Virus record (IMG/VR): IMGVR_UViG_3300023109_000045
Coordinates: 1 to 41,252 of that record
DNA: 41,252 nucleotides
Strand: one strand, 5' to 3'
Origin: a virus
The notes beneath the pieces were generated by a model, which was given only the letters and a program-made list of their open reading frames with translations, did no database searches and was not told the DNA's origin. A program made the position numbers and the translations under genes. Each line of letters opens with the position of its first letter. Within the stretch, counting starts at the first letter, position 1. Below, one piece after another: positions 21,284 through 31,283 of this stretch.

Positions 21284-21474
21284 GAGAGCAAATGATTAAA
21301 GCATTACTTGCACATGCAGAAGGTGAGGTAGCCTTACATAAAGCAAACGTGGAAGTATACTTAGCCAATCCCGCAGGAATTGGTGAACACTCGGATATCA
21401 TGGAGGCAGTACAAGCTGAGCTAGATAAAATGGCACATGCTACTGATCGCATTGAAATGATTAAGAGTCTATAA
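21280..21474 (+). CDS. Small helical protein downstream of regA
   Basis: The 64-residue protein, MREQMIKALLAHAEGEVALH onward, overlaps regA by ATGA and the next mini-gene by TAATG. It is composed of two amphipathic helices joined by a short NPAGIGEHSD turn. I recognise no family, though small genes in the regA-hsp20 interval are common in marine T4-like phages. Tight coupling to regA makes early expression likely. Confidence 0.75.
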   Translation: MREQMIKALLAHAEGEVALHKANVEVYLANPAGIGEHSDIMEAVQAELDKMAHATDRIEMIKSL

Positions 21475-21599
21475 TGGATTGGCTTACAGCTGATCTTATC
21501 GATGCAATGAATGAGACATCGTGGTTCGATGGAATTGGAACTATTGTTGTTTTGCTTGCAGCATATGCAGCGTATCGATATATAAAGAAAAAACTATAA
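21474..21599 (+). CDS. 41-residue single-pass membrane mini-protein
   Basis: The predicted protein MDWLTADLIDAMNETSWFDG continues into a hydrophobic helix, GIGTIVVLLAAYAAYRYI, and ends KKKL. The positive C-terminus suggests an N-out/C-in single-pass topology. The ATG overlaps the preceding stop as TAATG. It is too short for usual gene finders, but its coupled start and clean membrane-helix design support it. Function unknown. Confidence 0.6.
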   Translation: MDWLTADLIDAMNETSWFDGIGTIVVLLAAYAAYRYIKKKL

Positions 21600-21612
21600 A
21601 AACATAAAATGT

Positions 21613-21620
21613 TATATATA
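21613..21620 (+). promoter_or_regulatory. Possible late-type promoter for hsp20
   Basis: TATATATA differs from the late core TATAAATA at one base. T4 spacing would place the start near 21626, exactly at the first base of the leader hairpin, giving a leader of about 55 nt. The match is imperfect, and AT-rich DNA yields such words by chance. Confidence 0.3.
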
Positions 21621-21625
21621 GTATT

Positions 21626-21680
21626 GGACGCCGTTTAATACGGGTCCTAAACAAACCTTGCTAGTCAATAGGAGGAACAT
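21626..21680 (+). promoter_or_regulatory. Structured hsp20 leader; ROSE-like RNA thermometer candidate
   Basis: Hairpin 1 (21626-21647) pairs GGAC-G-CCG with CGG-GTCC around TTTAATA, with one bulged G. Hairpin 2 (21657-21675) pairs CTTGCTA with TAGGAGG around the loop GTCAA, burying the whole AGGAGG ribosome site. The anti-SD strand contains TTGCT (UYGCU), whose G faces a G of the SD, the hallmark of ROSE thermometers upstream of small heat-shock genes in proteobacteria. The stem is weak (C-G, U-G, U-A, G.G, C-G, U-A, A-U), as needed for melting. Confidence 0.55.
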
Positions 21681-22139
21681 ATGACTGGAAACTTCGCCTA
21701 CCCGCGAAACGCTTTTTTGGGTTTCGACCACATCTTCGATCAGCTTGAGAGTATTCACAAGCATGCGAAGGATACCTATCCACCACATAACGTAGTTAAA
21801 GAAGAAGAGATGAAATATTCTCTAGAACTCGCCGTGGCTGGATTCAAACAAGAACATATTGATATCTCTGTAAATGATGGAGTGCTTGACATTAATGGTG
21901 ACAGGCCACAACGTCGTGAGCAAGATAAGTACGTTCATAAAGGTATTAGTGCGAGAAATTGGAAGAAGTCATTTAGACTGTCCGAATATACGGAAGTAAC
22001 TGGAGCTGATCTTACCGATGGGATCTTGACTGTTAATCTAGAAGTCATCCTACCAGAAGAGAAGCGGCCTCGTAAAATCAAAATTGGTATTAACGAGGAA
22101 TCAACAAATGACACAAATAGTACTAGACGCAAGCCATAA
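21681..22139 (+). CDS. hsp20: Small heat shock protein Hsp20
   Basis: The 152-residue protein has an N-terminal arm (NAFLGFDHIFDQLESI) and an alpha-crystallin domain from about residue 38 to 140, with YSLELAVAGFKQEHIDISV, the GVLDINGDR strand and DLTDGILTVNLEV, the equivalent of the A-x-x-x-GVL-x-V signature. Hsp20 chaperones bind unfolding proteins; in marine T4-like phages the gene is common and its role is probably in scaffold or replisome protein folding. It has the strong AGGAGG site described under the leader entry. The 3' end overlaps the next gene in another frame. Confidence 0.95.
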   Translation: MTGNFAYPRNAFLGFDHIFDQLESIHKHAKDTYPPHNVVKEEEMKYSLELAVAGFKQEHIDISVNDGVLDINGDRPQRREQDKYVHKGISARNWKKSFRLSEYTEVTGADLTDGILTVNLEVILPEEKRPRKIKIGINEESTNDTNSTRRKP

Positions 22140-30033: not shown

Positions 30034-30062
30034 AACTATTATAATAAAGACAGGTGAAAAAT

Positions 30063-31283
30063 ATGAAAGTCGTACATATTCTAGGCCGCGGCATTGAAGG
30101 CTGCGGTGTAACTCGATTCACGCTCGAGTTAAAAGATTGGGCACTTAAAAAGGGGTGGGATTATACAGTCTATGCTCCTAGCGATAAAAAGTGGACACGT
30201 GCTGCATCTCACTACCTAGATGAAAATATTAAACAGTGGAAGTGGGGTAATAAACCTGCTCGTGGAGATACGATCTGCGGCACTGAAATAATTACCGAAG
30301 ATTGCAATAAGGCTGATTTAGTACTTATTGGTTCATTACCATCGAAAGGACACCCTGACGATTGTATCGAAAACTTCGGTAAAATGATTGATGGAATCAC
30401 GACTAAAAAAGTTATGATTCAACACGATCATAAAATGATGTCTATCAAGCGTAATGCTTTGCTTGATGATGTTATTAAATCTGCAAACGTTATTCTATCT
30501 TATTCTACTAAAAGTCCTTTTATGGATTACTGTAGAAATCTTGGTGCTAAGGCTAATTCATATAGCTTTTGTAATGGCGTTAATGTAGAAAGCATTCGTA
30601 AACAATATTGGAAACCTATTGAAGATCAAGATCCAAATCATTTGAAATGGATTGGCAGGTCTGCATATTGGAAAGGTTTCGATGTTATGTTCGACTTACA
30701 GAAAAGTTTACCAGATCCTTTGTACACATTAGAAGGAATGGAGAAATCAATTCAATTTGTTGATATCCGCGAAAAATTTGAATTCCACGAAATGGCTGAA
30801 AACTTTGATGTTGAAACAGTAGCTGGTGGAAAGCCTTATGTTTTTGGTGCATTCAAGCATGCTGAAATGTTAGAACGTATGTCAAAGTGTGGCTTTGGTT
30901 TTCAATTGACAACTCTTCAACCTGAATATATTCAAAACTTTATTGAATTTACTCACTTAGAAATTGCAGCTGTTGGTGTAGTTCCAATCTTTAGAAAAGC
31001 TTTTGGCGATCATTGTACACATTTGCAAACTGGCAATAAACTTACTGCTGATAAAAACACTGGTACTATATGGGCTGGTGAAGTAGGTACAGACTGGTCA
31101 GAAACTATTGAAGTCATAAATAAGCTTAGAAAAGATAATGTAATGCGTGACGAATGGCGAGAAATGGCTTACGAATATTACGCATCACATAATGGACCAG
31201 ATGTATCGTTCCCTGATATATTTGACAAAATTAACAAAACACCAGATAATCAACCACAAGGACTAGAGGAATTTTTCGCATGA
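30063..31283 (+). CDS. agt: DNA glycosyltransferase, T4 alpha-glucosyltransferase (AGT) homologue
   Basis: The 406-residue protein (T4 AGT: 400) matches AGT along its length: GRGIEGCGVTRFTLELKDW (8-26), QHDHKMMSIKRN, WIGRSAYWKGFDVMFD, EMLERMSKCGFGFQLT and FIEFTHLEIAAVGVVPIF. T4 AGT moves glucose from UDP-glucose to 5-hydroxymethylcytosine in DNA. The homologue has about 14 residues beyond the T4 end, finishing PDNQPQGLEEFFA, a clamp-binding-like tail. I chose ATG 30063 (AGGTGA 5 nt upstream) over GTG 30054. The next two genes encode UDP-sugar enzymes, so the donor sugar may not be glucose. Confidence 0.9.
   Translation: MKVVHILGRGIEGCGVTRFTLELKDWALKKGWDYTVYAPSDKKWTRAASHYLDENIKQWKWGNKPARGDTICGTEIITEDCNKADLVLIGSLPSKGHPDDCIENFGKMIDGITTKKVMIQHDHKMMSIKRNALLDDVIKSANVILSYSTKSPFMDYCRNLGAKANSYSFCNGVNVESIRKQYWKPIEDQDPNHLKWIGRSAYWKGFDVMFDLQKSLPDPLYTLEGMEKSIQFVDIREKFEFHEMAENFDVETVAGGKPYVFGAFKHAEMLERMSKCGFGFQLTTLQPEYIQNFIEFTHLEIAAVGVVPIFRKAFGDHCTHLQTGNKLTADKNTGTIWAGEVGTDWSETIEVINKLRKDNVMRDEWREMAYEYYASHNGPDVSFPDIFDKINKTPDNQPQGLEEFFA

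Follow-up and report, generated by a model that had tools for sequence, protein, structure and literature searches.

The hsp20 gene of a T4-like phage carries a 5' leader that is probably a viral ROSE-like translational control, opened by heat and acting on late hsp20 transcripts. The gene lies in a stretch of 41,252 nucleotides (IMG/VR record IMGVR_UViG_3300023109_000045, positions 1 to 41,252; here the window), a phage fragment with recognisable tail sheath, portal, DNA polymerase, clamp loader, and regA genes. The anatomy of the leader, the burial of its SD, its deep conservation with compensatory change, its specificity for hsp20 and the position of its predicted promoter can all be read directly from sequence.

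Anatomy of the hsp20 Leader

The hsp20 gene is located between regA and the DNA polymerase gene, and its product is a small heat-shock protein by both profile matches listed in Table 1, as the earlier note had assumed in calling this a leader of a phage hsp20. The reading frame given there was correct, with ATG 21681 as the start codon. A start further downstream was considered and rejected, as this ATG, the SD spacing, and the MTG N-terminus are kept in relatives. An alpha-glucosyltransferase gene (phrog_2888), possibly for DNA modification, was also seen at 30054-31283 of the window.

Table 1: Features of the hsp20 leader region, in positions of the window.
Feature	Position	Strand	Description	Evidence
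Late promoter box	21613..21620	+	T4-type box TATATATA, 7/8 to TATAAATA	Sequence; predicted +1 at ~21626
Hairpin 1	21626..21647	+	GGAC-G-CCGU / ACGG-GUCC: GGAC 21626-29, bulged G21630, CCGU 21631-34, loop UUAAU 21635-39, ACGG 21640-43, GUCC 21644-47	Folding; two-sided changes in all 8 pairs across phages
Linker	21648..21655	+	UAAACAAA, unpaired, between hairpins 1 and 2	Sequence; model R2 alignment
Hairpin 2	21656..21675	+	CCUU-G-CUA (anti-SD) with UAG-GAGG (whole SD AGGAGG): CCUU 21656-59, bulged G21660, CUA 21661-63, loop GUCAA 21664-68, UAG 21669-71, GAGG 21672-75	ROSE_3 match 21622-21686; descriptor; covariation
U(U/C)GCU motif	21658..21662	+	Here UUGCU, opposite AGGA 21670-21673	Sequence; motif definition in PMC11182007, PMC11342760
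Loop GUCA	21664..21667	+	In hairpin 2 loop; complementary to UGAC 21682-21685 at the start codon	Folding energies
hsp20	21681..22139	+	Small heat-shock protein, 152 aa	PF00011 E=1.9e-18; phrog_432 E=1.4e-36

When the sequence was read directly, a bulged hairpin followed by a hairpin burying AGGAGG was found base for base as the earlier note had described it. All of AGGAGG (21670-21675) is base-paired within hairpin 2, which ends 5 nt before the start codon of hsp20. The UUGCU motif faces the SD as U-A, U.G, bulged G, C-G, and U-A, with G21660 as the bulged base, and this is the ROSE arrangement that had been claimed for it. The two hairpins have a bulged-G module in common (21626-21675), namely, a pyrimidine, the bulged G, and a C facing GG. 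In hairpin 1 the module is widespread, being present in 150 of 201 phage leaders by a descriptor that requires it, and there it might be a second sensor or a contact for a protein. The leader folds more stably than shuffled sequences (z score -2.8), the minimum-energy fold consisting of hairpin 1 and an alternative hairpin at the start codon.

At 37°C, and with coding sequence included in the folding, ViennaRNA favours this alternative (CUAGUCA/UGACUGG) by 2.2 kcal/mol. It takes the start codon rather than the SD and is mutually exclusive with hairpin 2. The AGUC/GUCA on which it depends occurs in the hairpin 2 loop of 66 of the 81 loci of the window's clade, in three different loop contexts, and was not found in the hairpin 2 loops of the other phages compared. 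Either hairpin would in principle repress, hairpin 2 because the SD is hidden and the alternative because the start codon is. A pseudoknot using the loop GUCA and the UGAC at the start codon is another possible form of this pairing.

Similarity to the ROSE Families of Rfam

The leader was searched with all 4227 Rfam families. ROSE_3 (RF02523) gave the only sensible match, over its full length, with 22.4 bits (E=0.014), or E=4.5e-4 at the same score when ROSE_3 alone was run over the 41-kb record. The covariance search with the ROSE models that the earlier note had proposed thus returned ROSE_3 as the best match, under its cutoff of 43. No Rfam gathering score was reached anywhere in the window and, the score being below that of ROSE_3, the leader stands outside the membership of RF02523. 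Matches to IRES_Tobamo, BaMV_CRE, sR38, and S15 near the leader were far under their own thresholds and were discarded as chance.

Controls place the score in context. The E. coli ibpA leader reached 100.4 bits in ROSE_2, and two alphaproteobacterial hsp20 leaders remained below the cutoffs (L354, 41.1 bits against 45 in ROSE; Sphingomonas, 26.3 bits against 43 in ROSE_3). Since such bacterial hsp20 leaders also fall short, a ROSE_3 score under the cutoff is weak counter-evidence. ROSE_3 also matched the hsp20 leaders of the methylophage Melnitz-3 (34.1 bits) and of phage C48C1 (26.8 bits), the other two weak Rfam matches in the ten named-phage loci being enterobacterial sRNAs below threshold.

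ROSE-like elements are 5' UTRs directly upstream of small heat-shock genes, with two to four hairpins, the SD in the last one, and a U(U/C)GCU imperfectly paired to the SD around a bulged G; the leader has each of these features, with two hairpins that covary. It shares with ROSE_3 the two hairpins, the hairpin 1 core GAYGCCG...CGGGUC with one bulged G, the bulged-G anti-SD strand facing the SD, and the place directly upstream of a small heat-shock gene. It differs from ROSE_3 in being shorter (deletions of 3, 1, and 2 nt against the model), AT-richer, viral, and preceded by a phage late promoter. ROSE_2 (RF01832, E. coli ibpA) and the short ROSE-like thermometers of Pseudomonas ibpA have the same U(U/C)GCU with its bulged G opposite the SD, and the gene is likewise an ibpA/hsp20 whose protein has R93; no match to ROSE_2 was found in the phage leaders. 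With the rhizobial ROSE (RF00435) the leader shares the principle and the kind of gene, and this family matches the hsp20 leader of an alphaproteobacterial relative (L354), but it is longer (94 positions) and had no match in the window.

Late Promoter and Predicted Transcript Start

T4 late promoters have their box at positions -13 to -6. With the box of the window, which begins 13 nt before hairpin 1 as a T4-type late box does before a transcript start, taken as these positions, +1 falls at 21626, where hairpin 1 begins; we infer that the late polymerase uses this box. A start downstream of 21657 would have told against a thermometer, and the predicted one is upstream of this point. With +1 on the first base of hairpin 1, the late mRNA would carry the complete lock, unlike the arrangement of T4 gene e. 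Of 149 phage leaders, 109 have a sequence agreeing with the T4 late box TATAAATA at 7/8 positions or more no further than 35 nt upstream of hairpin 1, compared with 5% of random stretches. Counted over matches of 6/8 or better, box and hairpin 1 are separated, first base to first base, by a median of 13 nt in the clade of the window and of 11 to 13 nt in other groups. A 41-aa ORF with one hydrophobic stretch (21474-21599) ends just before this promoter.

Conservation of the Leader in Phages

Eighty viral contigs encode an Hsp20 that is 79-88% identical to that of the window. In every one of them a hairpin, AACCUUGC, GGAGG, and AUG line up, and in nearly every one a box like TATATATA or TATAAATA precedes them. 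Both hairpins were also found in ten divergent named phages (cyanophages, pelagiphages, a methylophage, and Agrobacterium and Sinorhizobium jumbo phages), and the arrangement of the window recurs in most of the 243 other viral loci that four scans supplied. The bulged-G SD hairpin is present in 200 of 201 distinct phage hsp20 leaders, compared with 20% of shuffles that keep the SD. Both hairpins occur together in 150 of the 201, compared with 0.3% of dinucleotide shuffles, by a two-hairpin descriptor that was composed after the sequences had been seen.

A covariance model (R1) was built from eight close leaders. As the length of hairpin 1 varies, MAFFT alignments put it out of register, and a seed of leaders with hairpins of equal length followed by alignment to the model was used instead. 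R1 was run on 210 kb of loci, of which nearly all had been held out, and found distant hsp20 leaders: every match with E<0.1 was at an hsp20 leader, except for one at the head of an hsp20 operon (L307); two weaker matches were found elsewhere (E 0.28 and 0.6). Of 82 sources, for the most part cyanophage loci that had been held out, the broad model R2 matched 81, always at the leader of hsp20. When whole phage records were searched, R2 matched at exactly one place in 12 of 13. Eleven of these sites were directly before hsp20 and one (G015/L307) was before the small ORF heading the hsp20 operon. The leader that R2 missed, that of S-B68, has by eye the same plan with an altered SD helix, UUUUAC-G-CU with AGGUAAAA. 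In the window, R2 matched 21624-21686 with 63.7 bits (E=4.8e-13) and otherwise gave one weak match (E=1.6).

The pairing in related hsp20 leaders, whose conservation the earlier note had named as a test, is kept with compensatory changes both within the clade and across phages. The alignments in which they were counted were fitted to the model, and hence are biased towards its structure: in that of the clade (42 leaders) 96.7% of pair cells are standard with two-sided changes at 8 of 15 pairs, and in the broad one (60 distinct rows from many phage groups, one of which, L081 653-683, is not an hsp20 leader) 96.9% are paired with two-sided changes at 11 of 15 pairs and a covariation of 0.298 versus 0.122. 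For the clade alignment, none of 500 shuffles was as good, and sliding the partner by 1-3 columns lowered the pairing to 43-61%. Across phages all eight pairs of hairpin 1 covary, with 97.4% of cells paired. Hairpin 2 covaries in its loop-side pairs (CU/AG, CAU/AUG, CAA/UUG) and in one outer pair; the pairs facing the SD are nearly fixed, as is expected of an SD.

Two neighbourhoods were observed in passing. In a 202-kb phage (L307 306-1062) the ROSE-like element is followed by an ORF of 79 aa that resembles phasins (Pfam Phasin_2, E=0.014, under the cutoff) and then directly by hsp20, so the element may control an operon of these two genes. In Sinorhizobium phage Phosso and Agrobacterium phage Atu_ph07 (L084, L087), hsp20 and its leader adjoin an annotated thymidine kinase and the protease adaptor ClpS, possibly a proteostasis cluster.

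How the Leader May Control Translation

Burial of the SD by a bulged-G helix is the published mode of action of ROSE elements (PMC11182007, PMC11342760), whose heat response requires the bulged G (PMC11342760). By analogy, the phage fold would repress translation, and temperature, possibly together with the release of Hsp20 from its own leader, would open it. Late in infection, the phage-type late promoter would start the hsp20 mRNA on the first base of hairpin 1, giving a leader that is little more than the element itself. Hairpin 2 would pair the whole SD through a strand weakened by the bulged G and the U.G pair and would keep ribosomes off. Heat would then loosen this weak hairpin, and Hsp20 would be made as host and virion proteins start to unfold. 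Low translation in the cool and a rise with heat are expected on the analogy with published ROSE action. In a folding scan of SD accessibility against temperature, the phage leaders rose no more than shuffles did, and the E. coli ibpA leader, a described ROSE thermometer run as a control, likewise showed no rise.

Another input, either joint with heat or the main one, could be Hsp20 itself. E. coli IbpA binds its own ROSE-type 5' UTR and represses translation until aggregates draw it away, a repression that depends on R93, an aromatic at position 34, and basic residues at 97/98 (PMC10474464). A phage Hsp20 that bound its leader in the same manner would be drawn off by unfolded or aggregating proteins, from host damage or excess capsid protein, and the element would serve first of all to sense aggregation, with its part as a thermometer coming second. 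Such self-repression is compatible with opening by heat, and the two may act together; we give it about one chance in three. R93 is typical of IbpAs from alpha- and gammaproteobacteria, the groups with ROSE (PMC10474464), and the repression residues are mostly kept among 240 distinct phage Hsp20s (R93 in 239, Y or F at 34 in all 240, K or R at 97 in 237). By our own reasoning, moreover, sea temperature would change little within one infection. Against this, R93 could be retained for folding, a basic residue at 98 is present in only 17 of the 240, and no RNA binding by a phage Hsp20 is known. The protein of the window has R93, Y34, and K97, but Ser98. A fuller scheme, which we put forward as speculative and somewhat less likely than self-repression taken by itself, would unite a late promoter on the first base of a thermometer with a self-repressing Hsp20 into a combined heat and aggregation sensor in late infection of marine T4-like phages, including cyanophages with a core hsp20; in the window's clade, SD and AUG would be locked together or in turn by the pairing of loop and start codon.

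The remaining explanations seem to us improbable to differing degrees. Hairpins at the 5' end can stabilise mRNAs, and hairpin 1 starts at the predicted +1; it might thus protect the late mRNA from decay, with the SD hairpin as a by-product that has no regulatory opening. We regard this as unlikely, as it leaves unexplained the near-invariant YGC/AGGA anti-SD strand, the compensatory loop-side pairs, the ROSE_3 match, and the occurrence of the element before hsp20 alone in each phage record. Timing of the T4 gene e type, by which the hairpin silences early read-through and late transcripts escape by starting inside or after it, is less likely still. A late promoter does lie just upstream, and the upstream operon of regA and small ORFs could read through, but the late start is predicted at the first base of hairpin 1, which leaves the lock complete on late mRNAs, and the same element is found on apparently chromosomal hsp20 genes of SAR11; on these grounds it was rejected. 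We attach the least weight of all to the leader as a target of the translational repressor RegA, whose gene is close by in the window (phrog_242) and near hsp20 in C48C1, S-CAM4, and S-B68. RegA acts on early genes, at short sites that lack structure, whereas hsp20 has a predicted late promoter, and the structure also occurs on bacterial chromosomes and in phages that have hsp20 elsewhere in the genome; RegA was therefore rejected as the main regulator.

Relation to Described RNA Thermometers

The earlier note knew of no described phage example. For thermometers in general this does not hold: phage-encoded ones have been described in lambda cIII, in SPbeta blyA (a fourU), and in the sigma-70 leader of a phage (also a fourU) (PMC10586365, PMC11182007). 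These, however, are without a ROSE motif and are not on a chaperone gene, and lambda cIII closes rather than opens with heat. For ROSE or a small heat-shock gene the statement stands: we found no phage ROSE element in the open-access literature on phages and ROSE or RNA thermometers, in which a subscription paper could be missed, and no mention of the leader RNA in the cyanophage sHSP papers checked. The ROSE kind is thus known, and as far as the open-access literature shows its viral members are undescribed.

Thermometers on the sHSP genes of cyanobacteria, the relatives of cyanophage hosts, are similar in the gene that they control (Synechocystis hsp17 and Anabaena). That of Synechocystis hsp17 differs in being one short hairpin, and the Anabaena sHSP leaders include a ROSE-like one as well as one that acts mainly on the start codon, by blocking it (PMC4166951). 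In T4-like cyanophages hsp20 is a core gene (PMC3037559). A conserved lock on it predicts synthesis of phage Hsp20 in infected cells that are hot or laden with unfolded protein, and such a lock would tie phage gene expression, by way of an RNA, to the stress of the host and the temperature of the sea. To our knowledge, no trigger of cyanophage hsp20 has been described. The models built here could seed the missing Rfam family.

Bacterial Relatives and Origin

Most of the closest bacterial hsp20 genes that we found are from alphaproteobacteria, and a bulged-G anti-SD leader is present on many of the genes found; the sample was drawn with a single methylophage protein as query and is biased towards relatives of that protein. 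An alignment of ten Hsp20 proteins had no stretch conserved enough for a scan of bacterial genomes. The same leader is present on SAR11 hsp20 genes (L347, L352, L361, L365, and L400). Their flanking ORFs are conserved and look chromosomal, being by eye prolyl-oligopeptidase-like and glutathione-synthetase-like. In the protein tree, the SAR11 Hsp20s are sister to the Mosig-like pelagiphage proteins (support 100/99), one of them being 67% identical to that of Mosig, and the jumbo-phage Hsp20s group with other bacterial Hsp20s (support 99/96); the deep forks of the tree are weak. This suggests that hsp20 and its leader moved together more than once, in one direction or the other.

Two bacterial assemblies contained what look like phage sequences. 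A 188-kb contig (L404, NZ_RMVE01000006.1) in an assembly of Nonlabens xiamenensis (Bacteroidota) has an hsp20 and leader identical to those of cyanophage L124; probably the entire contig is a contaminating cyanophage genome. In a Rhodobacteraceae MAG (genome G006) with six R1 matches, at least one of these (L421) is on a contig with the T4-like replication gene order and hsp20, which suggests phage contigs binned with the host.
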